NCBI RefSeq assembly: GCF_013401995.1 | Contig: NZ_JACBJI010000006.1 | Span: 124,001-188,000, forward strand | Source: Flavobacterium agri | GTDB taxonomy: Bacteria > Bacteroidota > Bacteroidia > Flavobacteriales > Flavobacteriaceae | Reading direction: 5' to 3' | DNA length: 64,000 nucleotides | Part shown: positions 49,823-61,679 of the stretch, one piece after another | Layout: each line of letters begins with the position of its first letter | Numbering within the stretch: the stretch's first letter is position 1 | Program-made: the position numbers and the translations under genes | Notes under the pieces: generated by a model | Seen by the model: only the letters and a program-made list of their open reading frames with translations | What the model was told of the DNA's origin: nothing | Database searches by the model: none

Positions 49823-50605
49823 ATGATCACCTGTAAAAACTGCAACCACGATTTCGACGGGAATTTCTGCAACCTCTGCGGCCAAAAAGCCAAAACTGCG
49901 CGCCTTGATTGGCATTACCTTTCGGACGAAGCCAAATATACGTTCCTTCATTTCAACGGCGGATTGACTTACAGCGTCAAACAACTCGTCACGCGACCTG
50001 GGCACACCGTTCGCGAATTCATCGAAGGCAAACGCGTCCATCATTACAAGCCTGTTTTGTTGTTGTTTGTACTGGCCGGTATATACGGATTATTGATGCA
50101 TTATATCGACATGACTTCGTATTTCGGTTCTTTCACCCATACCGGAACCGAAGAACAACAAAAAAAGGTAATCGAACTGCAGAACAAGATATTTGAATGG
50201 CAGGTAAGCCATTATTCCTTGATTGAAATCGTGAGTATACCGGTGGTTTCTTTCGCTTCATGGCTCGCTTTTAGAAAGTGGCGCTATAACTTCATCGAAC
50301 ACATCATCCTGAATTCTTTTTCGGCCTCGTTGCGCTTGCTGTTCAACATCGCTGTCTTTCCGTTATTCTATTATTCGATTGGAAGTTCTGCGATGTTTTC
50401 GATACACGCTCTTATCGCGCTGACCGGATTAGCTCTTACTTTTTGGACGTACATCGGTTTTTTCGGAAGCGGCAAAATCAAACCCATCCTGGGCAGACTG
50501 ATGTTGTTTTTGATACTGATCCTCGTCGAATTCGTGATTATGATGATTCTTTTTTCTTTAGCGATTATATTTCTTTTCGGCGATAAATTCGGTATCACAC
50601 ATTAA
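49823..50605 (+). CDS. DUF3667 family membrane protein
   Basis: A 260-residue protein with an N-terminal zinc ribbon (Cys4, Cys7, Cys16, Cys19 in CKNC...CNLC), a linker (LDWHYLSDEAKYTFLHFNGGLTYSVKQLVTRPGHTVREFIEGKR) and several transmembrane helices, the usual DUF3667 layout. The metal ribbon faces the cytoplasm. Function is unknown. Its stop overlaps the convergent TonB receptor gene by four bases. Confidence 0.85.
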   Translation: MITCKNCNHDFDGNFCNLCGQKAKTARLDWHYLSDEAKYTFLHFNGGLTYSVKQLVTRPGHTVREFIEGKRVHHYKPVLLLFVLAGIYGLLMHYIDMTSYFGSFTHTGTEEQQKKVIELQNKIFEWQVSHYSLIEIVSIPVVSFASWLAFRKWRYNFIEHIILNSFSASLRLLFNIAVFPLFYYSIGSSAMFSIHALIALTGLALTFWTYIGFFGSGKIKPILGRLMLFLILILVEFVIMMILFSLAIIFLFGDKFGITH

Positions 50606-53010
50606 AACACCACTTCTAGCGTAACATAAAACGTGCGCGTTTCGCTTGGGATGATTCCCGGTCCTGGATAACCCGTCGCGCGTCTTGTGAAGTAGTTGTT
50701 GTTGGTGAAGTTGTTGATTCCGCTTTCGAGTTTCCAGTTTCTCCATTTGTATGAAAGTCCTAAGTCGGCTACGTAATACGATGGGATTTGCCCGAAAACG
50801 CCATATGTATTGTCGTTCGGATCGCTTTTCGAATTCGAAGCGTCGGTAAACTGGTCGGAATAATACGTAAGCTGGATCGTCGCAAGCACGTTTCTATATC
50901 CGACGCCCGTTCCCGTTTTCACATTGACAAGCGGTACGAATTCTACTTTATTCCCTTCTATGTTGCCCGCATCCGAGTCGAGGTATTCCGAACCTGTAAG
51001 CGCACCGTTCGCGAAAACATTCCAGGAAAAATCGGGGCTGTCGAAAAACGTACGGTCGAGTTTCCAGTCGACCATCGCTTCAAAACCATACGTAAGCGCA
51101 TTGCCCACATTGGTCCTGTAGCGCACCAATCCGGCCGCGCCGTTCGGGTTTTCGGCTAAATATTCTCCGATTTTTTCTCCGTAATATAAAGCGAAAACAC
51201 TGGCGTCGAGCGAGATTTTATCGTTGAATTTCCCACGGATTCCAACATCGGACGTATACCCTTTTTCATCGTCGATTCCCGGATCGATCGCAAGTCCGGG
51301 CGTGCTCGTGCGGATGTCATTGTACGTGACCGAACGGTAATTGCGCGACACGTTGCCGTAAAGCTCGAACCCGTTGTCCATTTTATGCGCCATTCCGATT
51401 CCGAACAGGAAAATCTCGCGTTTCTTGTCGATTTTTTCGTTTATGGTTTCGTCGAGGATCACGTTTCCGGCCAAATCGTACAGCACGTTGCGGTAAAAAC
51501 CGTTGGCTTTGGTACGGATGCTTTCATATCGGAATCCGGGCGTGATCGAGAATTTATCCGAAATGCGGAACACGTTTTCCCCGAAAATAGCCAAGTTCAA
51601 ATTCGGATAAGTGTATTGGGTCATCGCATCGTCGGCCAATTCGAAATCGGGTCCCGAACCGGTCGAGCCCGCACCCTGGAATTCGCGGTTATGCGCCTGA
51701 TAATATTTCGCGCCCAACAACAAAGCGTTGTTTTGGCTGCCGATTTTGTACTTTCGCAAGTAACGCGCCTCAGCTCCCCAATTCGCGAATTTCCCCGAAA
51801 TCAAATCGCGGTTCGAACCCGGAACATCGTCGGCCGACACGCGGTTCTGGCGATATCCGACGGCCTGACGTTGCGCATCGAGTCCGAAAAGTTGCAATGA
51901 GAAATTGTCGTTCGAACTGAATTTGTGTTTCAATTGAAACGCGAACAGATTCCAATGTACATCGAACCAGTTACGTGCGCGGTTGCTTTGTTCCGGATCC
52001 TGATTGAACATCAAATCGGTGAGCCCGCCCGGTTGTTGCGCGAGGTAGTTGAGGTTGGTATAATCGAAATGGATCGACGTCTTTTCGGAAAACGCATAAT
52101 TCAAATTCGCGAAAAAATTGCGGCTGCTGAATTCGGAATTCGGGCGAAAACCGTCGCCTTGCTTATAATTGAAGTAGGTGTAATAGCTGAATTTACCGAC
52201 GGTTCCGCTCAAACTCGAAAAGTTCGTATACAAACCGTAAGAACCGAGGGTATTGCGCAAGACGATTTCCATTTTCTTCGTCGACGGATCGTGCAGCTTG
52301 AAATTGATGAGCCCGCCGAACTGCGTGCCGTATTGCAACGAAGCCGCACCACGCACGACCTGGATTTCCTGAAGCGCTTCGACCGGAGGCGTGTAATAAC
52401 TTTCGGGATAACCCAAAACATCGGCACTGATATCGTAACCGTTCTGGCGCGTATTGAAATTCGAGGTCCGGTTCGGATTGAGCCCGCGGCCGCCGACCGA
52501 AAGCTGTAAACCGCCGTCCGATCCTTCGTTTATCGTAAGCCCGACGACCTGGCTGTACACCTGTCGCGTATTGTTCACGGCTTTGTTCACGGTGAGTTGG
52601 TCGACCGAAACGACCTCTGTTTTCTTTCCGGCATAAATCGCGGTTTCCTCTACATCTCTGAGCTTGTTGAGCGCAAACAGCTTTTCGCGTTGTTTTTGGA
52701 TGACGACTTCCGAAAGCAGCTCGACTTTGAGGAATTTGACTTCGACGACTTTTTCGGATGGCGACAACGTCATATCGACCGTACCGAAATCCTCGGCATA
52801 AAAAGTGAAATCGTACGCCTTGTTTTCGGGAACCGAAATCACCGACGGACTTTGCTTGAGCACGAACTTTTCTCCGGTCGTCTTATTGTAGACCTCGACG
52901 GGCCAAACCGCCTCGGCACTTATATCCGAAAACGAGACGTTGATCGAAAACTGGGCGTTGGCGGTAAGTCCGAAACACAAAAATAACAGGCTAAAAACCG
53001 TAAATCTCAT
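50602..53010 (-). CDS. TonB-dependent receptor (FecA-like), iron-locus member
   Basis: An 802-residue outer-membrane receptor, start at 53010 (MRFTVFSLL) before a signal peptide cut at ANAQ; longer in-frame starts run through the HTTM gene and would lose the signal. Order: an N-terminal beta domain (about 24-110), plug with TRQVYSQVVGLTINEGSDGGLQLSVGGRGLNPNRTSNFNTRQNG and ALQEIQVVRGAASLQYGTQFGGLINF, then the barrel ending VTLEVVF. This plug form is the FecA class. It overlaps the HTTM stop by 20 bases, so the two are coupled. As third gene of the imelysin-HTTM operon it most likely imports ferric or other metal complexes. Confidence 0.92.
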   Translation of the reverse strand: MRFTVFSLLFLCFGLTANAQFSINVSFSDISAEAVWPVEVYNKTTGEKFVLKQSPSVISVPENKAYDFTFYAEDFGTVDMTLSPSEKVVEVKFLKVELLSEVVIQKQREKLFALNKLRDVEETAIYAGKKTEVVSVDQLTVNKAVNNTRQVYSQVVGLTINEGSDGGLQLSVGGRGLNPNRTSNFNTRQNGYDISADVLGYPESYYTPPVEALQEIQVVRGAASLQYGTQFGGLINFKLHDPSTKKMEIVLRNTLGSYGLYTNFSSLSGTVGKFSYYTYFNYKQGDGFRPNSEFSSRNFFANLNYAFSEKTSIHFDYTNLNYLAQQPGGLTDLMFNQDPEQSNRARNWFDVHWNLFAFQLKHKFSSNDNFSLQLFGLDAQRQAVGYRQNRVSADDVPGSNRDLISGKFANWGAEARYLRKYKIGSQNNALLLGAKYYQAHNREFQGAGSTGSGPDFELADDAMTQYTYPNLNLAIFGENVFRISDKFSITPGFRYESIRTKANGFYRNVLYDLAGNVILDETINEKIDKKREIFLFGIGMAHKMDNGFELYGNVSRNYRSVTYNDIRTSTPGLAIDPGIDDEKGYTSDVGIRGKFNDKISLDASVFALYYGEKIGEYLAENPNGAAGLVRYRTNVGNALTYGFEAMVDWKLDRTFFDSPDFSWNVFANGALTGSEYLDSDAGNIEGNKVEFVPLVNVKTGTGVGYRNVLATIQLTYYSDQFTDASNSKSDPNDNTYGVFGQIPSYYVADLGLSYKWRNWKLESGINNFTNNNYFTRRATGYPGPGIIPSETRTFYVTLEVVF

Positions 53011-54358
53011 CGTTGAAAAGTAAAATCCAGGTCTTGTGCCTGAACGATTCGTATTGTTTTGAAAGGTCGACTTTAGGGTCGATATAAGGTTGCGACAAAC
53101 GTCCGTTGAGCGCGACATAACTTGTGCAAAAAACTTTTGGGTCTTGGATCCCGCGTTTTTCGAATTCATCATGAAGGAAATGTGCGTATTCTAAAATGAA
53201 ATCGGGTTGGAATGCCATCTGTTTTTCCTGGAAAGCCGTGAGAAATTCATGATTGTCAACATGAACTACGGCATTTCGAGCTTCATCGACGACGCGGAAT
53301 TCGGTGTAACCCGCTTTTTCCATAAGCATCACGCGCCATGAGAAGCGAAAACCTTCTTCGGTCCAAAAAAGTTCGTCGGGGTAAAGCAAGTATCGAAACG
53401 GAAAAAACAGCTGGAAAACGACGAAAGCGATCACGATATTGAGCTTCATCACATTGGGCAGGTCGAACGTCTGGACTTTCTCTTTGGTCATGATCAGCAA
53501 CGAATGCGGCAATCTGAAAATGCTTCGGATGTAGCCCAAAACACCGCGATGGAACGACGGCCCGAAGAAAATTAACGTCGCCACGATCATGATGTACGGG
53601 AAAATCCCGATCGGGAACAAAATCTTGGTCAATATGTGAAACACGATCACGAGCAGGAATGCCCAGAATCGCGTTTTCCGGTTGAGCAGTAAAAACGGGA
53701 TCGTCAAATCGTAAGCCGCGCCTATCCAACAAAACGCATACTGCATCCAATTTTGGTTGAGCCAGGTTCCGATGAGCGGCAAATCCATATTTCCGGGAAG
53801 CCAGATCTTGAGTGGCATCGCGTGCAACAGCCAATCGGAATTGAGCTTGGCCAGGCCTGCGTAGAAATAGACGATGCCGAGAAGCAGTTTGAGAATATCG
53901 GTCGTCCAACGCGGAATCCTTGAGAAAGCAAGCTTCTGGTTGCGATGCGCATCGACCGAAAAAAAAGCGTTTGCGGGCAAAAAAATCATGATGAAACTCA
54001 CGACCGACACAAAATAGTAATGGTTCAGGTACGTGGTCTTGTCCATGAGTTCGATATACGTGAACGTGAGGAAAAACGTAACGATAGCCAGCCTGTATTT
54101 GAATCCTATGGCGACCATGAAAGCCGAAACCGCGCATACGGCGAATAGCAAATACGTCCAATCGCCCAAAGGCTTGACCCATTCGAAACCGTAATACGTA
54201 AAGTGGAAAACGGGTTTGATGTAGAATTTTTCGATCCAGCCGTAAGCCGCAAAACGAATCAATCCGCCGAGCATCATAAAACCGAACGCCAGCCTGAAAA
54301 AGGCCAGCGTCGCCGCATCGCATCCCGATGCCAGATATTTGCGGATCGAAATCGCCAT
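52991..54358 (-). CDS. HTTM-domain (vitamin-K-dependent carboxylase-like) membrane protein
   Basis: A 455-residue multipass protein (about eight to ten hydrophobic segments) of the HTTM/VKGC superfamily. The key segment is I-E-L-M-D-K-T-T-Y-L-N-H-Y-Y-F (residues 102-116): the human gamma-glutamyl carboxylase has the same D-K...N-H pattern, and its Lys (218) is proposed as the catalytic base. Lys107, Asn112 and His113 are retained here. C-terminal about 130 residues are soluble. It sits between an imelysin-like lipoprotein (3-base gap) and the TonB receptor (20-base overlap). Whether it carboxylates, or oxidises a quinol for metal reduction, is inference. Confidence 0.85.
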   Translation of the reverse strand: MAISIRKYLASGCDAATLAFFRLAFGFMMLGGLIRFAAYGWIEKFYIKPVFHFTYYGFEWVKPLGDWTYLLFAVCAVSAFMVAIGFKYRLAIVTFFLTFTYIELMDKTTYLNHYYFVSVVSFIMIFLPANAFFSVDAHRNQKLAFSRIPRWTTDILKLLLGIVYFYAGLAKLNSDWLLHAMPLKIWLPGNMDLPLIGTWLNQNWMQYAFCWIGAAYDLTIPFLLLNRKTRFWAFLLVIVFHILTKILFPIGIFPYIMIVATLIFFGPSFHRGVLGYIRSIFRLPHSLLIMTKEKVQTFDLPNVMKLNIVIAFVVFQLFFPFRYLLYPDELFWTEEGFRFSWRVMLMEKAGYTEFRVVDEARNAVVHVDNHEFLTAFQEKQMAFQPDFILEYAHFLHDEFEKRGIQDPKVFCTSYVALNGRLSQPYIDPKVDLSKQYESFRHKTWILLFNDEIYGF

Positions 54359-54361
54359 GGC

Positions 54362-55474
54362 TTAATCGCCGTCTCCGTCTACGTAATCGATCGTGATATT
54401 AAGCGCCTGGAGCATGTCGAGTTTCACATAAACGACTTGCTGTTGGAGCACGTTGTACGCGTTGATCATTTTGGTATTGTCGCTGAAAATCTGCTCAGAA
54501 AAACTTTCGTCCAAAGTAGTATTGGCTTCGAAAACCGCTGTGAATTGGTTGTTGATGATCGTGGAAAGGTTCTGGCCGTTTCGCACCGCGTTCACATGGT
54601 CGAGATAGGTTTTGAGACCTGGTCCGGTCGTCGCATTTCCGAAAGATTTTCCGTTGAAGAAATCCTGTTCGGCATGAAGCGATTCGTTGAGCAGATTGCG
54701 TGAAATGTCGTTTTTGTAATAGGCTTCGACTTTTTCGGGAAATGTCGTCCCGTTCGAGAAAAGTCCCGACGGAATGCCCAATTTGCCGTAGCGGATGTCT
54801 TTTTCGAGCGTCTTCACGAAAAGGTTCGTGATCTTGTTGGTCGAACTGCTCACGGAATTGCCATTGCTCGCCACGAACGAATCGCGGAAACCACCGTTCC
54901 AATCGGCTACGACCGCATCGATGACGGTTTTGAGACGGGTCGTGACATCGGTAAGGTATTGCTTGTATTTGACGGCGTTCGCATTTGTCGTATAAAAAGC
55001 GAGAATTTCGGGATCGTTGTTACCAAGCCCGTTAATCAGATAGTCGACAGCCGGAAAACCTTGTTTATCGAACTGTGAAAATGTAGTCAGGTTGTAATTG
55101 CCCGAAGCGATGTTGGCTTCGATTCCGGTCGCGCTTGCCGGATACGTATTTCCTGACAACTTCAGGTTCAGATCCTGTGCTTTTCCGATATCATAGAGCA
55201 TCACGTATTGGAACGCTTTGTAGCCGTCAAGCCACGACGCGCGAAGTGTTTCGAGGTTCAGCTGTGAAGGGTTTGCGTTGAAAGCCGCTGCAGCGGTCGC
55301 AAGCGTATTCACTTTCGCTTGATAGTTTTCATACGAAGGGATGATGATGTTATCGGCCCAATGGGTAAGCATTGCCGAACGGTCGAAAGTATCCGACGGG
55401 TTATCGCCACCATCGGACGAAGAACAACCGAAAGCGACCAAAGCGAAAAAGGCAAAAAGGAGAATTTTCCTCAT
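54362..55474 (-). CDS. Imelysin-like lipoprotein with degenerate GxHxxE motif
   Basis: A 370-residue lipoprotein (Cys17, LVAFGC; acidic DGGDNPSD follows), imelysin-type helical domain through residue about 360 (ANIIIPSYENYQAKVN-type start, LRASWLDGYKAFQYV, DKQGFPAVDYLINGL). Imelysins have a GxHxxE metal/peptidase site. The aligned place here reads G139-F-P141-A-V-D144, so the His is Pro and the Glu is Asp. A divergent function (scaffold or ligand chaperone for the canonical imelysin) is likely. It is the first gene of the HTTM-TonB operon and divergent from the canonical imelysin. Confidence 0.88.
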   Translation of the reverse strand: MRKILLFAFFALVAFGCSSSDGGDNPSDTFDRSAMLTHWADNIIIPSYENYQAKVNTLATAAAAFNANPSQLNLETLRASWLDGYKAFQYVMLYDIGKAQDLNLKLSGNTYPASATGIEANIASGNYNLTTFSQFDKQGFPAVDYLINGLGNNDPEILAFYTTNANAVKYKQYLTDVTTRLKTVIDAVVADWNGGFRDSFVASNGNSVSSSTNKITNLFVKTLEKDIRYGKLGIPSGLFSNGTTFPEKVEAYYKNDISRNLLNESLHAEQDFFNGKSFGNATTGPGLKTYLDHVNAVRNGQNLSTIINNQFTAVFEANTTLDESFSEQIFSDNTKMINAYNVLQQQVVYVKLDMLQALNITIDYVDGDGD

Positions 55475-55660
55475 CTCAAGAAATTTTCGGCAAAAATAAT
55501 GAAGCTGATTTACTTATGTTTATTTATTCTAAATAATTTCGTCAAATTGTTGATAAGAAATCGCGACGCAAATATTTTTTCGCAAATGTTCGCATCGGCT
55601 TTTGTCTTTCGGAACAAAGGATTTACATTTGCCGTAATTTTAAATCAATCTAAATAAACA
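55475..55660. promoter_or_regulatory. Divergent control region of the iron-type locus
   Basis: Plus strand: TTTG (55601-55604), exactly 19 bases, TACATTTG (55624-55631), then 29 bases to the start at 55661, a consensus promoter. Minus strand: TATTTTTG (55498-55491), 16 bases before the start at 55474, with no clear -33. An A+T-rich stretch (55501-55560) lies between. I found no obvious Fur box by eye. Confidence 0.65.
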
Positions 55661-56824
55661 ATGAAAAACATATCTATATCTGCCGCGTTTTTGGCTGTCG
55701 TAGGTTGCTCTTTCGTGACTTCTTGTAGCGATGACGATTCAAATGATGGCGTTACCAAAGCGAAAGTGATCAAGAATTACGCGGACATCGCTTACGAAAA
55801 CTACAAAGATGCATACGACGATGCCGTAGAACTTGAGCAAGCGATCAACGCATTTGTAGCCAATCCTACCCAAGCTACTTTCAACACGGCTAAAGAAGAG
55901 TGGAAAGAATCACGCGAAAGTTATGGTACGACAGAAGCGTTCCGTTTCGCGAACGGGCCTATCGACGACGCCGACGGACCGGAAGGTTTGATCAATTCTT
56001 GGCCGTTGGACGAAGCATATATCGATTATGTCGACGGAGATGCAAATGCAGGAATCATCAACAATCCGGCAGAATTCCCTACAATTACGAAAGTTTCGCT
56101 CGAAGCGTTGAACCAAACCGAAAACGAAGAAAGCGTTAGCGTTGGTTACCATGCGATCGAATTTTTGCTTTGGGGACAGGATTTGACGGCTCCATCGGCT
56201 AACATGGCGGGACAACGTCCATACACCGATTTCGTTGACGGAGGAACCGCTTCAAACCAGGATCGTCGTCGCCAATATTTGTTAGCTTGTGCCGATTTGT
56301 TGACCGACCACCTGTCTTCGCTTGTAACCGAATGGCAACCGGGAGGTGCCTACCGCACGACTTTCCTCGCTTTGCCCGAAAACGAAGCGTTGCAGAACAT
56401 GTACCTCGGAATCGTGACGTTGGCTTCGGCCGAACTTGCCGTAGAGCGCATGGACGTCGCGCTTTTGAACATGAGCCAGGAAGACGAGCACTCTTGCTTC
56501 AGCGACAACACGCACCGCGACGTACGCTTGAACCTTCAGGGAATCGTAAACATTTATCAAGGCAAGTACGATGATATCGACGGGCCGTCGTTGGAAGATT
56601 TGGTCAAGAAAGCCAGCACTACGGCTTTCAGCGCGACACAAACGTCCTTGCAAGCGGCACAGACCAAGATGAACGCGACTCAAATCCCGTTCGACGCGGC
56701 GATTTCTGAAGGCCCGGATTCTACCGAAGGCGCAAAAGTAAAAGCTACCGTTGAAGAACTTCAAAACCTTGGCGCGACATTCATTGCCGGAGCCGCAGCG
56801 ATCGGAGTTACCGTCAACGGATAA
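55661..56824 (+). CDS. Imelysin (IrpA-like) iron-uptake lipoprotein
   Basis: A 387-residue lipoprotein; the lipobox could be Cys16 (AVVGC) or Cys22 (FVTSC), the latter followed by acidic DDDSNDG. The imelysin domain has the intact site G162-Y-H164-A-I-E167 (SVGYHAIEFLLWGQDL) and the family phrase QEDEHSCFSDNTHRD, typical of IrpA, an iron-regulated protein of the EfeO/insulin-cleaving family. It would sit at the outer or inner membrane and bind iron. A strong terminator hairpin follows its stop before the di-heme gene, suggesting attenuated readthrough. Confidence 0.93.
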   Translation: MKNISISAAFLAVVGCSFVTSCSDDDSNDGVTKAKVIKNYADIAYENYKDAYDDAVELEQAINAFVANPTQATFNTAKEEWKESRESYGTTEAFRFANGPIDDADGPEGLINSWPLDEAYIDYVDGDANAGIINNPAEFPTITKVSLEALNQTENEESVSVGYHAIEFLLWGQDLTAPSANMAGQRPYTDFVDGGTASNQDRRRQYLLACADLLTDHLSSLVTEWQPGGAYRTTFLALPENEALQNMYLGIVTLASAELAVERMDVALLNMSQEDEHSCFSDNTHRDVRLNLQGIVNIYQGKYDDIDGPSLEDLVKKASTTAFSATQTSLQAAQTKMNATQIPFDAAISEGPDSTEGAKVKATVEELQNLGATFIAGAAAIGVTVNG

Positions 56825-56850
56825 AAAATATTGAATCTATTTTGGATGAG

Positions 56851-56877
56851 AGTGCTCTGTTTCAGGGCACTTTTTTT
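56851..56877 (+). terminator. Terminator between imelysin and di-heme oxidoreductase genes
   Basis: AGTGCTCTG (56851-56859), loop TTT, CAGGGCACT (56863-56871), then a run of seven T. One U-G pair. It sits between two genes of the same strand, so DHOR expression would require readthrough or another promoter, which I did not see. Confidence 0.75.
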
Positions 56878-56893
56878 CCGTTTATAATACACA

Positions 56894-58297
56894 ATGAAAA
56901 AAGTTTACCGTTGCCTTTTGGGCGCTGTGCTATTTCTATCGGTTTCGGCTTGTTCCGACAGCGATTCCGACTACCAACCTTTGACTCCCGAAGAAGGCGA
57001 ACAATTTTCGGGCGGCTCGTCAACGGTTTTCAATTCTACCGAGGAAGCGTTCGGATTTGCATCGTCGGCGATCACGCCAGACCAGGCTTCCGATTTTGGT
57101 GTCGGGAATTCGTTTTTCCGCCAGAATTGGGTCATGGCACCTTCTTCGACCACGGCTCGCGACGGCCTCGGCCCATTTTACAACGCGATTTCGTGCGCTT
57201 CGTGCCATTTCAAGGACGGACGCGGTAGACCTCCAAGCTTCGACGGGGAATTCGGAAAAGGCTTGCTGTTGCGGCTTTCAGTTGCGGGCACAGACGCGTT
57301 CGGAGGCCAACTTCCCGACCCGATTTACGGCGGACAATTGCAGGACAAGGCAATTTTCGGACAAACGGCAAAAGGAGACTACACGATTTCGTACGAAACC
57401 ATCATCGAAACGTTGGCCGACGGCACGACGGTAGAACTGCGCAAACCGATTTACCACATCCAGAATTTGGCTTATGGCGATATGGCCACAAACGTAATGG
57501 TTTCCCCTCGTATCGCGAACCAGATCATCGGCATGGGCTTGCTCGAAGCCATTCCGCAGCAAACGATTTTGGATTTCATAGACAGCGGCGACAGCAATGG
57601 AGACGGTATTGTCGGGAAAGCGAACTACGTGCGCGACTACACTTCAAATACGACCAAACTCGGACGTTTCGGATGGAAAGCCAACCAACCTTCGATACGC
57701 CAACAAGTCGCGATGGCCTTGCATCAGGACATGGGATTGACAACTTCGCTTTTTTCAGTCGAAAATTGCCCGCCGGGAATCGATTGTAACGCGATTCCGA
57801 ATGGTGGCACTCCCGAAGTACCCGATTTATCGCTCGACCGCATGGTGTTGTATTCCCAGGCGTTGTCGGTACCGGCTCGCAGAAATCTCGACGACCAAAG
57901 CGTGTTGAGAGGAAAACAGATTTTCGCCGAGCTCAATTGCATCGGATGCCACAAACCGAAAATCCAGACGGGAAGCGATTATACGATCGCGGGCATGCGT
58001 AACCAGACGATACGTCCTTACACCGATTTGTTGCTGCACGACATGGGTGACGGACTGGCCGACAACGCCAACGACTACCTGGCCAACGGTCGCGAATGGA
58101 GAACCCAGCCGCTTTGGGGAATCGGACTTATCAATACGGTCAACGGACATACGAACCTGTTGCACGACGGACGCGCACGAAACGTAACCGAAGCGATTTT
58201 GTGGCACGCCGGCGAAGCGACGAATTCGAAAAACGCGTTCAAACAACTCAATACTTCCGAACGTACGGATTTGCTGAATTTCATCAACTCGTTGTAA
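56894..58297 (+). CDS. Di-heme oxidoreductase (DHOR/DUF1111) lipoprotein
   Basis: A 467-residue lipoprotein (Cys20 in SVSACSDSDSD). Two heme c sites: CASCH at 101-105 (AISCASCHFKDGRG) and CIGCH at 349-353 (LNCIGCHKPKIQTG). The overall sequence matches the di-heme oxidoreductase family, related to MauG-type peroxidases and common next to imelysins in iron-regulated loci. It could change the redox state of iron or of an imelysin ligand. It is downstream of the terminator at 56851-56877, so stoichiometry to imelysin should be low. Final helix INSL ends the domain normally. Confidence 0.92.
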   Translation: MKKVYRCLLGAVLFLSVSACSDSDSDYQPLTPEEGEQFSGGSSTVFNSTEEAFGFASSAITPDQASDFGVGNSFFRQNWVMAPSSTTARDGLGPFYNAISCASCHFKDGRGRPPSFDGEFGKGLLLRLSVAGTDAFGGQLPDPIYGGQLQDKAIFGQTAKGDYTISYETIIETLADGTTVELRKPIYHIQNLAYGDMATNVMVSPRIANQIIGMGLLEAIPQQTILDFIDSGDSNGDGIVGKANYVRDYTSNTTKLGRFGWKANQPSIRQQVAMALHQDMGLTTSLFSVENCPPGIDCNAIPNGGTPEVPDLSLDRMVLYSQALSVPARRNLDDQSVLRGKQIFAELNCIGCHKPKIQTGSDYTIAGMRNQTIRPYTDLLLHDMGDGLADNANDYLANGREWRTQPLWGIGLINTVNGHTNLLHDGRARNVTEAILWHAGEATNSKNAFKQLNTSERTDLLNFINSL

Positions 58298-58428: not shown

Positions 58429-59142
58429 TTATACAGGTTTATATTCTACCACTTTCCAATCTGCGGAAAGCAAGTCGATGTAGTTGTAATGCAGCACGTC
58501 GTTCTTATCGAATTCACCGCTTTTGTTCGTGTCTTCTATCGTGCGGAAATACAGTCGGTTTTTGGATTCAATGAAATTCCAGTCGATCAATTCCTGAAAA
58601 TCCGGAGAGACTTTAACCAATTTGTTTCCGTTGATTTCCCCGATATACAACGTACGGATATCGCTCGCATCAAGCTTTCCGTCCTGATTCGTATCCATAT
58701 CCGAAAGCGAATACACCAAAATCTGCTGTTTGGTCTTATCGGCGAATGCCTTTAGGAAAGTGGCGGTCTGGATAAGCACGGGTTTATCGAAAACGGCTTT
58801 TATGGAATCCGAAGAAACTTCCTGGATTTTAAGATTTTTCAAATAGCCCGTAATTTCGAATTCCCCGTAATTGGAAACCGTAAAGCTTCCTTTTTCGTAC
58901 GAATAACCCGATTTTCTCGCACCGTCCATTACACGATATTGCCCGACGGGATGAATCAGGTACGACGTTCCCGAAATCTGTATCGGCAAATCGGCGATTT
59001 CGATCTCGGAAGAATCGGCCGCGGCGGCCACGGCTTTGGATTCGCGGGCCTTATACGTCACTTTGGGCTTTTCGGTATCCTCATTTTTACAGCCAACGGC
59101 AAACAACGCAACGGACAACGATAGCAACAGCGCTTTTTTCAT
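58429..59142 (-). CDS. EF-hand lipoprotein, unknown function
   Basis: A 237-residue lipoprotein, start at 59142 (MKKALLLSLS), lipobox Cys18 (LFAVGC). After a beta-rich region (about 50-130) two EF-hand/dockerin-like loops follow: DTNQDGKLDASD (150-161) and DTNKSGEFDKND (204-215), both with D-x-N-x-[DS]-G-x-x-D-x-x-D. Calcium binding is likely. It is separated from the iron locus by a terminator-like repeat and has its own -7 box (TATATTTG, 59174-59167). No function assigned. Confidence 0.7.
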   Translation of the reverse strand: MKKALLLSLSVALFAVGCKNEDTEKPKVTYKARESKAVAAAADSSEIEIADLPIQISGTSYLIHPVGQYRVMDGARKSGYSYEKGSFTVSNYGEFEITGYLKNLKIQEVSSDSIKAVFDKPVLIQTATFLKAFADKTKQQILVYSLSDMDTNQDGKLDASDIRTLYIGEINGNKLVKVSPDFQELIDWNFIESKNRLYFRTIEDTNKSGEFDKNDVLHYNYIDLLSADWKVVEYKPV

Positions 59143-59166
59143 ACGATCGGGATTCGGATTACACTT

Positions 59167-59174
59167 CAAATATA
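59167..59174 (-). promoter_or_regulatory. Candidate -7 element for the EF-hand lipoprotein
   Basis: TATATTTG on the minus strand, 24 bases before the start at 59142. It lies 30 bases beyond the stop of the upstream TonB receptor. Confidence 0.4.
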
Positions 59175-59204: not shown

Positions 59205-61679
59205 TTACAACCTTGCGGAAAGTTTAACGTTGAACACGCGCGTGGTCATGTAGTTCGGGATGCCGTACTGGTTTTTGGTATACACGTCGCGCACCCACGT
59301 ATTCGTGATCGCATTCTGGTTGTTGAACATGTTGAAGATCTCGAATCCGACAGACAAATCCTTGAACTTTTTGAGCCAATGGCCATCGGGACGCGTCCCA
59401 TTGGTTTCGGTGAACACATATGAGAACCCGACATCGGCACGGCGATAATCGCGCAAACGGCTTTGGTACACATAAGGATCGGCATACGAAGGCGAACCGC
59501 CCGGCAATCCGGTGTTGTACACAAGATTGATATAGACTTTGACGTTCGGGATCGCTGGCATGTAATCCTGGAACAACACGCCGAATTTGAGCCGTTGGTC
59601 GGTCGGACGCGGAATGAACCCACGATCGTTGAGATTCTCTTCGGTTTTCATATAACTGAAACTGAACCACGATTCGGTGCCTTTCACGAATTCGCCGTTC
59701 AATCGCATGTCGAGTCCCGTCGCATAAGCTTTCGCATCATTGTTCGCACGATAGCGGATGCGCACGTTCTCGAGCGTATACGTATTGATGTCCGACATGG
59801 ATTTATAGTAGACTTCTGCCGAAAACTTGAACGGACGATCCCACATCTTGAAGCTGTAATCGCCTCCGGCCACGTAATGGATCGAACGCTGGGCTTTCAC
59901 GTCGGGATTCACGACACCTGCAGAATCACGCAATTCGCGGTACATCGGAGGCTGGTAATACAAACCGCCCGACAATCTAAACAAGATGTCGCGTTCCCAT
60001 TTGGGCTTGATCGTAAATTGGGCGCGCGGGCTGAACACGATCTGGCTTTTGCCGTTTTCGCCAAAGTCGTTCGAAACTTCCCAATTGTGGGCGCGCACGC
60101 CGGCGTTAAGCCAAACGTCGCTTGTTCCGATATGGGTTTTGCGACTCCATTGCGCATATCCCGAAAACCTTTCGATTTGCGTGTAATTGAGCGCACGCAC
60201 GTTTTGGTAAGGCACGAGCGGGCCTGTATAAGGATTGTACGGCTGATCGTTCGTCGGCAGACCGACAATCGGCGGATTCAATGAAAAACCTGCCGAATCG
60301 ATGACTTCCCACTCTACCAATCGGTCGCGAATGTCTTCGCGCGAATATTTGAAACCCCATTCGATAGTGGTTTCTTTCGGCAATTTGTGTGAACCTTTCA
60401 CTTCGCCGTTCACTATAAAGGCGTCAAGGTCGTTTCTCGCATGGTTGAGCTGTTCGCCGATTCCACGGTTGAAGACGACGTCGCCGAACGTATCCGAACC
60501 GATATTAGCATCGACCTCACCCAAAAAATAAGCCGCGTAAATGTCGAAATACTCCTTTTCTATCGCGTGGTAAGCCGAACCGATGAACTTCAGCGTGAAA
60601 TTATCGGATACTTTATATGTCGACTTGAGCGCGCCGAAATACGTCTCGTACTTGTCTTTTTCCTGACCTTCGTAAAATACCTGGAGCGCGATCGGCTCAT
60701 CTATCGTTCCGAAATTCGTCTGGCGTGTAAGCGGTTGGTAATTGTAGCGGTTTTGCGAAATGTTGCCCAAAAAGCTGAACGTCCATTTCGGCGTCGGATT
60801 GAAGTTGATGTTGGTCTGGATGTCGAAAAACCGCGGGCGGAAATTCGTCTCGGTCTCCTGACTGTTCACGAGCATGCTATTGTCGCGGTAGCGCGCACCG
60901 ATAAGTCCTGACCATTTGTTGTTTTTGGAAACGAGGTCGGCCGAAACGCTTCCGCCGAGAAGGCTGGCTTGTGCCGATGCGCCGAATTTGGTCGGGACGC
61001 GATACGTGATGTCAAGTACAGACGACAGTTTATCGCCGTATTTCGCCTGGAATCCGCCCGATGAAAAGTTGACGTCCTGAACCAGATCGGTATTCGTGAA
61101 ACTCAAACCTTCCTGTTGGCCAGAACGGATCAAAAACGGTCGATACACCTCGATTTCATTCACGTAAACCAAATTCTCGTCATAGTTTCCGCCACGCACC
61201 GAATACGCCGTACTCAATTCGTTGTTGCTCGTAACGCCTTGCAAGAGCTTGACGATGTTCTCGATCCCGGCATTCGCACCCGGAATGTTGAGCGCGAGTT
61301 CGGGTTTGATATTGATCACGCCTTCGATCTGGTCGCGGTTCTGCATCGTAACGATAACAGTCTCGAGTTGTTCGAATTCCGAGTTCACGACCGGATTGAA
61401 CTGAAGCGTTTCACCGGGTTTCAATTCAAAAGCCTGGGATGTTTTTTTATACGACGGATGCGTCACGACAAGGTCGAACTTTTGGTTGGCAGGCACGTCG
61501 ATCACGAAAAAACCGGTCTCATCGGTCGTGACTGAACGGTTTGCCGCAGTTACGGTAGCGCCGTCGACAGCTTGGTTGTCTTCATCTAAAATGACTCCGG
61601 TGATTCTCGCATTCTGGGCAAAAGCCACGATTCCGAACAAAAGGAAAAAGAGCGAAAAGAGGTGTTTGTTGGTCTTCAA
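59205..61679 (-). CDS. TonB-dependent receptor with carboxypeptidase-like N-terminal domain
   Basis: An 824-residue outer-membrane protein. Signal peptide (1-21, VAFAQ), carboxypeptidase-regulatory-like domain (22-110, ARITGVILDEDNQAVDGATVTAANRSVTTDETGFFVIDVP), plug (about 120-230, with QGVTSNNELSTAYSVRGGNYDENLVYVNEIEVYRPFLIRSG) and barrel ending FNVKLSARL. The plug SVRGGNYDENLVYVNEIEVYRPF is typical of a widespread Flavobacteriia receptor of unknown cargo. It follows the M23 peptidase gene by 11 bases, so the two are one operon. Confidence 0.92.
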   Translation of the reverse strand: MKTNKHLFSLFFLLFGIVAFAQNARITGVILDEDNQAVDGATVTAANRSVTTDETGFFVIDVPANQKFDLVVTHPSYKKTSQAFELKPGETLQFNPVVNSEFEQLETVIVTMQNRDQIEGVINIKPELALNIPGANAGIENIVKLLQGVTSNNELSTAYSVRGGNYDENLVYVNEIEVYRPFLIRSGQQEGLSFTNTDLVQDVNFSSGGFQAKYGDKLSSVLDITYRVPTKFGASAQASLLGGSVSADLVSKNNKWSGLIGARYRDNSMLVNSQETETNFRPRFFDIQTNINFNPTPKWTFSFLGNISQNRYNYQPLTRQTNFGTIDEPIALQVFYEGQEKDKYETYFGALKSTYKVSDNFTLKFIGSAYHAIEKEYFDIYAAYFLGEVDANIGSDTFGDVVFNRGIGEQLNHARNDLDAFIVNGEVKGSHKLPKETTIEWGFKYSREDIRDRLVEWEVIDSAGFSLNPPIVGLPTNDQPYNPYTGPLVPYQNVRALNYTQIERFSGYAQWSRKTHIGTSDVWLNAGVRAHNWEVSNDFGENGKSQIVFSPRAQFTIKPKWERDILFRLSGGLYYQPPMYRELRDSAGVVNPDVKAQRSIHYVAGGDYSFKMWDRPFKFSAEVYYKSMSDINTYTLENVRIRYRANNDAKAYATGLDMRLNGEFVKGTESWFSFSYMKTEENLNDRGFIPRPTDQRLKFGVLFQDYMPAIPNVKVYINLVYNTGLPGGSPSYADPYVYQSRLRDYRRADVGFSYVFTETNGTRPDGHWLKKFKDLSVGFEIFNMFNNQNAITNTWVRDVYTKNQYGIPNYMTTRVFNVKLSARL

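Follow-up and report, generated by a model that had tools for sequence, protein, structure and literature searches.

The human vitamin K-dependent gamma-carboxylase (GGCX), a member of the VKGC superfamily, activates clotting factors by converting Glu to Gla with vitamin K epoxidation, but what its bacterial relatives do has been an open question since they were noticed; the Leptospira VKGC, for instance, is reported to be an epoxidase without detectable carboxylase activity (Rishavy 2005). Imelysins have been found with di-haem oxidoreductases (DHOR) in iron-responsive loci such as Pseudomonas aeruginosa PA4370-PA4373 and the Leptospira LruB-DHOR-imelysin genes with a nearby TonB receptor, which carry an imelysin, a di-haem protein (called an EfeB homologue in PMC3143127) and a second imelysin (PMC3143127, PMC13066512, PMC7567364), while EfeUOB has an imelysin (M75) domain protein and a haem oxidoreductase. 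In Riemerella anatipestifer, a TonB receptor, a 'vitamin K-dependent gamma-carboxylase', an imelysin and a hypothetical protein lie in a row (RAYM_09779-09794) and are induced at low iron (PMC5609570, Table 4). In this article, I describe a locus of Flavobacterium agri, within a 64,000-nucleotide stretch of contig NZ_JACBJI010000006.1 (hereafter the window), in which an HTTM membrane protein that might have been taken for a transporter looks instead like a bacterial relative of GGCX, in an iron-response operon found widely in its phylum.

Five genes around a divergent control region

A sequence-only reading of the window had described two imelysin-family lipoproteins, a di-heme oxidoreductase, a FecA-type receptor and an HTTM protein around a shared 186-base divergent region, and that observation is confirmed, since all five genes lie where they were placed. 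On the minus strand are a TonB-dependent receptor (ORF 50602-53172; PF00593 2.2e-28, PF07715 2.9e-07), whose likely real start is the ATG at 53010 before the signal peptide (an inference, with the start chosen by eye), the HTTM/VKGC gene (52991-54358) and imelysin-1 (54362-55474; PF09375 4.3e-21), a predicted lipoprotein of the motif-variant (IPPA/PA4372-like) kind with GFPAVD in place of GxHxxE and a C-terminal DGD. On the plus strand are imelysin-2 (55661-56824; PF09375 3.9e-67), an LruB/ICMP-like predicted lipoprotein with an intact GYHAIE motif that scores 183.9 bits with the LruB model, below its cut-off of 850, and the DHOR (56894-58297; PF06537 5.1e-100), a predicted lipoprotein with two CxxCH motifs identified by eye. 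The region between them (55475-55660) is exactly 186 bp, and coupling on the minus strand is tight, with 3 bp between imelysin-1 and VKGC and a 20-bp overlap of VKGC with the receptor if the latter starts at 53010. One correction is needed, namely that 'FecA-type' is only a superfamily-level likeness, as the receptor scores 81.5 bits with the FecA model against a cut-off of 1100 and 126.2 with a siderophore-receptor model against 223.5. The assignment of imelysin-1 to the IPPA/PA4372 subfamily (GxxxxE, His lost) was left undecided, because among its relatives the His is absent in 145 of 146 but the Glu position is Asp in 126 and Glu in 14.

The two best Fur-like sites of the whole window, scored with a matrix built from Riemerella boxes, both lie in the 186-bp region: one of 19.1 bits at 55637-55655, ending 5 bases before the imelysin-2 ATG at 55661, and one of 15.0 bits at 55516-55534, at -60 to -42 of the imelysin-1 ATG. 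Of 12 relatives inspected, six have boxes of 15 bits or more at -60 to -62 and one at -107, one has 14.7 bits at -54, and four have none above 10; across the larger set only 38 of 145 imelysin-1 upstream regions pass 14 bits, such that boxes directly before imelysin-1 are found in a minority only. Fur binding itself was not assayed.

A VKGC/GGCX homologue in place of a presumed permease

The HTTM protein carries both VKGC domains far above cut-off (PF05090 5.1e-80, PF22777 8.8e-58), matches human GGCX over residues 12-445 (E about 3e-40), and its predicted fold matches only GGCX chains at E<=0.001. The catalytic base (K171, equivalent to K218 of GGCX) and the Glu-pocket residues N112 and H113 (N159 and H160, which hold the substrate Glu in GGCX; residue roles from PMC12589487) are invariant in 153 of 153 trio-type relatives and in 24 of 24 other VKGCs. 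Of 19 mapped active-site columns, 12 are among the only 37 invariant of 455 (hypergeometric 4.5e-10), although two of the 12 are invariant for a residue other than the human one. The vitamin-K pocket gave a mixed picture that settles the matter in neither direction: of the ring residues (F286, F294, F299, H160, V210, M401, W223) five of seven are invariant, V210 being kept in 147 of 153 and M401 being Val in all 153, whereas of the tail-tunnel residues (A214, G258, G259, V254, V255, N290) only A214 and G259 are kept throughout.

Other features of a gamma-glutamyl carboxylase in the strict GGCX sense are lacking. The Glu-binding loop is diverged (WtEeGyRFsWRVMLmE against WTNGLYGYSWDMMVHS), with F337 in the window for Y395 (Tyr in 104 of 153 relatives), R342 for D400 and V343 for M401; N158 is Leu (L111 in the window) and K217 is Ala in 153 of 153; R436 is mostly Gln (Q380 in the window); the propeptide exosite Y425 is mostly Val (V367 in the window); and the C99-C450 disulfide is absent (F53 and F394), so Glu carboxylation may be lost. 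Conversion of Glu to Gla was not measured here. Imelysin-1 has conserved Glu at E224 (99%) and E250 (100%), but these are single positions, and I saw no Gla-domain-like cluster in the imelysin-1, DUF4856 or receptor consensus. Neither was a recycling partner found, since VKOR (PF07884) is missing from the own genome and, comparing the lists by eye, occurs in 18 of 82 VKGC genomes against 92 of 395 phylum genomes overall, which is no association. An attempt to test for an oxygen requirement had no power, because COX1 is present in 71 of 71 trio-type genomes but also in 359 of 375 of the phylum sample.

An operon conserved across Bacteroidota

Conservation of the imelysin-HTTM-TonB order across Bacteroidota had been put forward with the sequence-only reading as a check on its proposal, which was to be refuted by no iron (or metal) response together with no HTTM-imelysin co-conservation, and the order holds: imelysin-VKGC-receptor on one strand recurs in 76 of the 80 nearest loci and in 68 of 72 loci of a phylum-wide sample (71 genomes, 36 genera), which is beyond chance, against 0 of 24 for other VKGCs, which sit at ribF with no imelysin or receptor adjacent. 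Trio VKGCs lie on one side of a branch with support 100 in the tree, in which GGCX is a long branch whose place is not interpreted. The distribution is nevertheless patchy, with PF22777 in 82 of 395 phylum genomes; a class-level search (80 of 295 genomes) served only as a tally and its loci were not opened. Exceptions include the Roseivirga loci L103 and L108 (locus numbers of the sample), which have DUF4856-VKGC without imelysin or receptor in the fetched stretch, and L218, which has VKGC alone. Among plasmid-borne VKGCs, the Paracoccus albus and Bernardetia copies have no imelysin or receptor nearby, while one Persicobacter copy (L268) has imelysin-DHOR-imelysin-VKGC on one strand; a second Persicobacter hit was not opened. 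Another divergent member, L244, has the same arrangement plus a receptor, with its first imelysin cut by the contig end.

The conserved unit normally includes a further gene that could not be seen from the window, DUF4856, which lies upstream on the same strand in 61 of 72 loci and usually leads the operon; 52 of 57 DUF4856 genomes are among the 82 with PF22777, yet none was found in the window's genome. Fur-like boxes precede 117 of 136 DUF4856 genes, against 1.8% of shuffles and 2.3% of 751 control ORFs. DUF4856 is named in no paper of the library searched, and its confident, all-helical model has no PDB match at E<=0.001; imelysin 3n8u appears at Z 4.3, but among unrelated helical rows, which does not decide whether the two are related. 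As for the iron response, the same-named block in Riemerella rises 2.1-3.1-fold at low iron, but these genes still respond to iron in the fur mutant (2.7-3.1-fold), the fur effect at high iron is only 1.4-1.9-fold and no Fur box is tabulated for them, while orthology to the window genes was judged by name and order alone.

Interpretation and comparison with known systems

The sequence-only interpretation is thus partly supported: an iron locus, co-conservation of HTTM with imelysin, tight coupling of HTTM with the receptor and some association of the imelysin-DHOR half all hold, whereas the proposal that HTTM replaces the permease of the EfeUOB plan is not supported, and nothing found supports a permease. 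The explanation I favor, at a probability of about one half, is that the locus is one iron-responsive outer-membrane system for acquiring iron (or another metal), split here into two divergent operons with a Fur-like box each. What the sequences show is a VKGC/GGCX-superfamily enzyme with an intact catalytic base and five of seven invariant ring residues, specifically linked across the phylum to a motif-variant imelysin, usually to a DUF4856 protein, and to a TonB-dependent receptor, with Fur-like boxes before these operons in many genera; the rest is inference, namely that at low iron the operon is derepressed and VKGC, predicted to reside in the inner membrane, uses menaquinol and O2 to modify an exported partner (imelysin or receptor) on the periplasmic side, possibly by gamma-carboxylation of Glu to Gla or by related base-driven chemistry, creating metal-binding or assembly-competent sites, after which imelysin-1 would work with the receptor at the outer membrane while imelysin-2 and DHOR would supply the imelysin/di-haem redox step. 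Substrate and chemistry are unproven, and neither the metal nor the ligand has been identified. DUF4856 cannot be the only substrate if the enzyme works here, because none was found in this genome.

A possible, though more tentative, alternative is that the homologue serves the iron system through other menaquinol/O2 chemistry, such as uncoupled menaquinone epoxidation or a base-driven change of a small chelator or another residue. This would fit the kept base and ring pocket beside a consistently changed Glu-binding loop, K217, R436 and propeptide site, the reported behavior of the Leptospira enzyme and the lack of a VKOR association, but N159 and H160 are invariant, the operon leaves no room for a small precursor gene between its three genes and none of the five genes matches a chelator synthesis family. 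It is unlikely that the two halves are unrelated iron operons merely sharing a promoter region: imelysin-2 and DHOR are within the fetched flank in only 12 of 80 and 5 of 72 loci, many of them close kin, yet L244 and L268 hold both halves on one strand, nearness recurs in divergent, convergent and co-directional forms, and the own genome's only two imelysins are both here, so all five genes plausibly form one system. That VKGC is a passenger with a housekeeping membrane role and a merely historical place in the operon is very unlikely; VKGCs at ribF and the few trio-type copies that stand alone or only with DUF4856 speak for it, but the trio order over 36 genera and the Fur-like boxes before DUF4856 argue for a role in the iron response. 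Least likely is the permease, for although the protein is polytopic and no other permease is among the five genes, its full-length homology to an enzyme, its predicted fold and its invariant active-site residues all disfavor it.

A bolder reading, doubtful but not excluded, is that Bacteroidota carry out vitamin-K-type (menaquinol-dependent) gamma-carboxylation, with an iron-regulated VKGC converting Glu to Gla on its co-encoded imelysin-like or DUF4856 proteins or TonB receptor, these Gla residues being metal ligands for uptake; this would be a bacterial counterpart of the clotting-factor modification with a defined substrate and purpose. In any case, the operon gives these bacterial enzymes a conserved context over many genera (iron limitation, imelysin-like and DUF4856 proteins and a receptor), which makes their unknown job testable, shrinks the substrate search to a few co-encoded proteins and is helped by natural losses, such as the missing DUF4856 here and the two Roseivirga loci. 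If carboxylation is confirmed, it adds a post-translational modification to bacterial metal uptake and bears on where animal GGCX came from. It also places DUF4856 and motif-variant imelysins in a system.

In the literature, 'carboxylase' and 'vitamin' do not occur in the main text of PMC3143127, nor 'carboxylase' or 'vitamin K' in the two Leptospira papers (PMC13066512, PMC7567364); PMC5429918 and PMC7881567 contain no 'imelysin', 'HTTM' or 'carboxylase'; PMC9478572 and PMC5561996 mention imelysins without a carboxylase in the parts seen; and in the Riemerella study 'carboxylase' and 'imelysin' occur once each in the main text, as table rows (PMC8638967, PMC8638851, PMC9146348 and PMC9331221 were also consulted). 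Compared with EfeUOB, the locus has no permease family and no cupredoxin domain among its five genes, both imelysins matching M75 only, and no EfeU-type permease was found among the nine proteins scanned between 49043 and 61679, the rest of the genome not having been searched for it. Like the PA4370-PA4373 and LruB loci, it brings together a GxHxxE imelysin, a DHOR and a motif-variant imelysin, but splits them into divergent operons rather than a single one. The Leptospira VKGC is likewise a bacterial VKGC, its gene neighborhood and those in other phyla lying outside the searches made here. With human GGCX, finally, the window's protein shares the HTTM and VKGC lumenal domains, the predicted fold (TM-score 0.81 by query length) and the catalytic base, in 455 residues against 758.

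The HTTM protein and its predicted active site

The five genes reported by the sequence-only reading are present as it described them, with imelysin-1 (54362-55474), the HTTM protein (52991-54358) and a TonB-dependent receptor (ORF 50602-53172, probable start 53010) on the minus strand, where 3 bp separate the first two and the last two overlap by 20 bp, and with imelysin-2 (55661-56824) preceding a di-haem oxidoreductase, DHOR (56894-58297), on the plus strand; the divergent region between them is indeed 186 bp. Imelysin-2 keeps the GxHxxE motif (GYHAIE), while imelysin-1 reads GFPAVD, and in 146 aligned imelysins from imelysin-VKGC-receptor trios (window included) the His is absent in 145. 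In addition, imelysin-1 ends in DGD in 143 of the 146 trio imelysins, as do four other imelysin-1-like proteins in the loci, providing a possible binding or recognition tail. The locus also has neighbors, since a DUF3667 protein gene (49823-50605; PF12412, 3.8e-11) is convergent with the receptor gene and overlaps it by 4 bp, and on the other side lie a small acidic protein with a lipobox recognized by eye and EF-hand matches below cut-off (58429-59169) and a second TonB-type receptor with a CarboxypepD_reg domain (59205-61679), both of which are also found beside the locus in three relatives' loci (L031, L034 and L042).

The interpretation offered with that reading, a metal uptake system in which the HTTM protein replaces the permease of the EfeUOB plan, is only partly supported, since the iron setting and the linkage to imelysin hold up as described below, but nothing points to a permease. 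The protein has the HTTM domain (PF05090, 5.1e-80) and, behind it, the VKGC lumenal domain (PF22777, 8.8e-58); a phmmer search against solved structures finds human vitamin K-dependent gamma-carboxylase, GGCX, at about 3e-40 over residues 12-445; and an AlphaFold2 model (mean pLDDT 82.4, low at 329-347) matches 16 chains at E<=0.001, all GGCX (best 9wfc, 2.3e-20, TM-score 0.81 by query length). It is an enzyme homologue.

I took the residue roles from the GGCX cryo-EM paper (PMC12589487) and mapped them through the phmmer alignment onto 153 sequences of 400 bits or more, namely the window, the 80 nearest loci and 72 loci from a phylum-wide sample, although some genomes seem to be in both sets. 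K218 (the base), H160 and N159 (the Glu pocket), A214, W223, G259, F286, F294, F299 and M402 are invariant in 153 of 153, and of the vitamin-K pocket described in the paper, 5 of 7 ring residues and 2 of 6 tail-tunnel residues are kept in all, with V210 kept in 147. Only 37 of 455 columns are fully invariant and 12 of the 19 mapped active-site columns are among them (hypergeometric 4.5e-10), although two of the 12 are invariant for another residue than in human (N158 to L, M401 to V). However, several features speak against equivalence to GGCX: K217 is Ala in 153 of 153, Y395 is Tyr (104) or Phe (49; Phe here), R436 is Gln in 140, Y425 is Val in 134, the C99-C450 disulfide is absent, and the loop WTNGLYGYSWDMMVHS is replaced by WtEeGyRFsWRVMLmE. 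In GGCX, K217A impairs substrate binding but not catalysis (PMC12589487). So base and cofactor chemistry look kept and substrate recognition changed.

Conserved gene context and the DUF4856 gene

A search for the imelysin-HTTM-TonB order across Bacteroidota had been proposed as the check on this locus, with absence of HTTM-imelysin co-conservation as part of what would count against it, and the order proved to be widespread. One scan of the genome collection, from which the best 80 of 588 relatives found were kept (by name all Bacteroidota, as I read them), showed a same-strand imelysin and receptor flanking the VKGC in 76 of 80. Since that set is biased to near kin, I also used a sample drawn across the phylum, in which 82 of 395 genomes carry PF22777, and the 96 matches listed besides the window's own were examined with flanks. 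Their scores are bimodal, with 72 loci at 400 bits or more and 24 below; of the 72, which come from 71 genomes in 36 genera, 68 have imelysin and receptor adjacent, and of the 24, none has. Similarly, in a tree the 73 trio-type rows, window included, plus one Persicobacter plasmid row lie on one side of a branch with support 100, and the 24 others fall in two groups. The four exceptions among the 72 are L228, which is DUF4856-VKGC-receptor without a detected imelysin, L218, which is VKGC alone, L221, which lies on a 6.2-kb contig, and L209, in which the receptor frame seems to fail only my distance rule. The other VKGCs (locus L251 in the window's own genome, G000:C12:334550-334990; the 24 phylum loci below 400 bits) lie next to ribF (16 of 24 loci) and in 9 before serS, with no imelysin or receptor adjacent, and possess K218, H160 and N159 in 24 of 24 while keeping GGCX-like N290 (24), M401 (23) and H381 (21). 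A further VKGC, on plasmid p1 of the alphaproteobacterium Paracoccus albus (L266), sits beside a DUF393 protein with no imelysin or receptor annotated nearby.

Furthermore, in 61 of the 72 phylum loci a same-strand gene lies upstream at a median of 1177 bp from VKGC, that is, just before imelysin-1. The example scanned is DUF4856 (PF16148, 1.6e-53), an invariant Cys after the signal suggests a lipoprotein, and by my profile it is within the fetched stretch in 71 of the 80 nearest and 64 of the 72 phylum loci. One such protein (L032:4579-5808, from a relative's locus) gave a confident all-helical predicted model, with invariant EH-WD and S-E-G-F motif residues and no PDB match at E<=0.001. DUF4856 occurs in 57 of 395 genomes, and by comparing lists 52 of these are among the 82 with PF22777 (Fisher 1.5e-37, not corrected for kinship). 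None was found in the window's genome; the search that showed this also gave no hit in any control genome, but the phylum-wide search that found the family in 57 genomes was again negative for the window's genome, which has two imelysins, both at this locus. Among the nearest 80, 7 of 9 loci without DUF4856 have DHOR nearby against 5 of 71 with it (Fisher 8e-6, many being close kin). Two Roseivirga loci (L103 and L108) show the reverse, with DUF4856-VKGC as a pair without imelysin or receptor in the fetched stretch, a minimal unit useful for substrate tests. So trio-type VKGC nearly always follows an imelysin or a DUF4856 gene, and neither is obligatory.

Probable iron control and proposed mechanism

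The absence of any iron response had likewise been named in advance as counting against an uptake system, and the evidence on this point is both published and sequence-based. I built a matrix from the 11 Fur boxes tabulated for Riemerella (PMC5609570; four promoters were tested by gel shift there), and in the 64-kb window the two best sites, 55637-55655 (19.1 bits) and 55516-55534 (15.0), both lie in the 186-bp region, the third being 12.0. The matrix is AT-rich and so are intergenic regions; of 751 control upstream regions (these start at the first Met of frames of 300 aa or more, some perhaps not genes) 2.3% reach 14 bits, while upstream of DUF4856 117 of 136 do, against 1.8% of mononucleotide shuffles. 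Upstream of imelysin-1, where DUF4856 usually intervenes, 38 of 145 reach 14 bits against 1% of dinucleotide shuffles, although backgrounds differ between these analyses and the bits are not interchangeable. By eye, a Bacteroidota-type promoter fits 55601-55604 and 55624-55631, just before the imelysin-2 box. In Riemerella, a block of the same names (RAYM_09779 receptor, 09784 'vitamin K-dependent gamma-carboxylase', 09789 imelysin, 09794 hypothetical) rises 2.11-3.07-fold at low iron and is listed by the authors under Fur; however, the fur mutant still responds (2.70-3.07), the fur effect at high iron is 1.36-1.93, and no box is tabulated for these genes (PMC5609570). The iron response is published and Fur control likely, exclusive Fur control not having been shown.

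The gene content, homology, residue conservation, linkage and Fur-like boxes rest directly on the sequences, whereas it is by inference that I propose that VKGC uses menaquinol and O2 to modify an exported partner on the periplasmic side. Human GGCX was found with menaquinone-4 bound (PMC12589487). Flavobacterium makes menaquinone. The candidate partners here are imelysin-1 and the receptor, but substrate, metal and reaction are unproven, I saw no Gla-like Glu cluster in the imelysin-1, DUF4856 or receptor consensus, and no VKOR partner was found. Imelysin-2 begins CSDDDSND at its lipobox Cys, close to the flavobacterial surface-export signal SDDFE (PMC5080379), so an outer-surface place is plausible.

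Comparison with known imelysin-DHOR operons

That bacterial VKGCs exist is old, the HTTM domain having been described in 2004 and the Leptospira enzyme in 2005, and the new point is the conserved iron operon. Among the open-licence papers searched, none was found on imelysin with HTTM or on DUF4856, and imelysin together with a vitamin K carboxylase led only to the Riemerella paper, where the genes are table rows (PMC5609570).

The imelysin-2 and DHOR half of the locus is less constant than the trio, since these two genes lie in the fetched stretch of only 12 of 80 nearest and 5 of 72 phylum loci, in divergent, co-directional and convergent arrangements. However, in two divergent members they share a strand with VKGC: L268, the Persicobacter plasmid locus, reads imelysin-DHOR-imelysin-VKGC with no receptor recognized next to it, and L244 reads imelysin (cut by the contig end)-DHOR-imelysin-VKGC-TonB receptor. 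This is the known imelysin-DHOR-imelysin kind of operon, exemplified by P. aeruginosa PA4370-PA4373 (PMC3143127) and by the Leptospira LruB operon with a nearby receptor (PMC7567364; PMC13066512), with VKGC added, and the window is best read as a split version.
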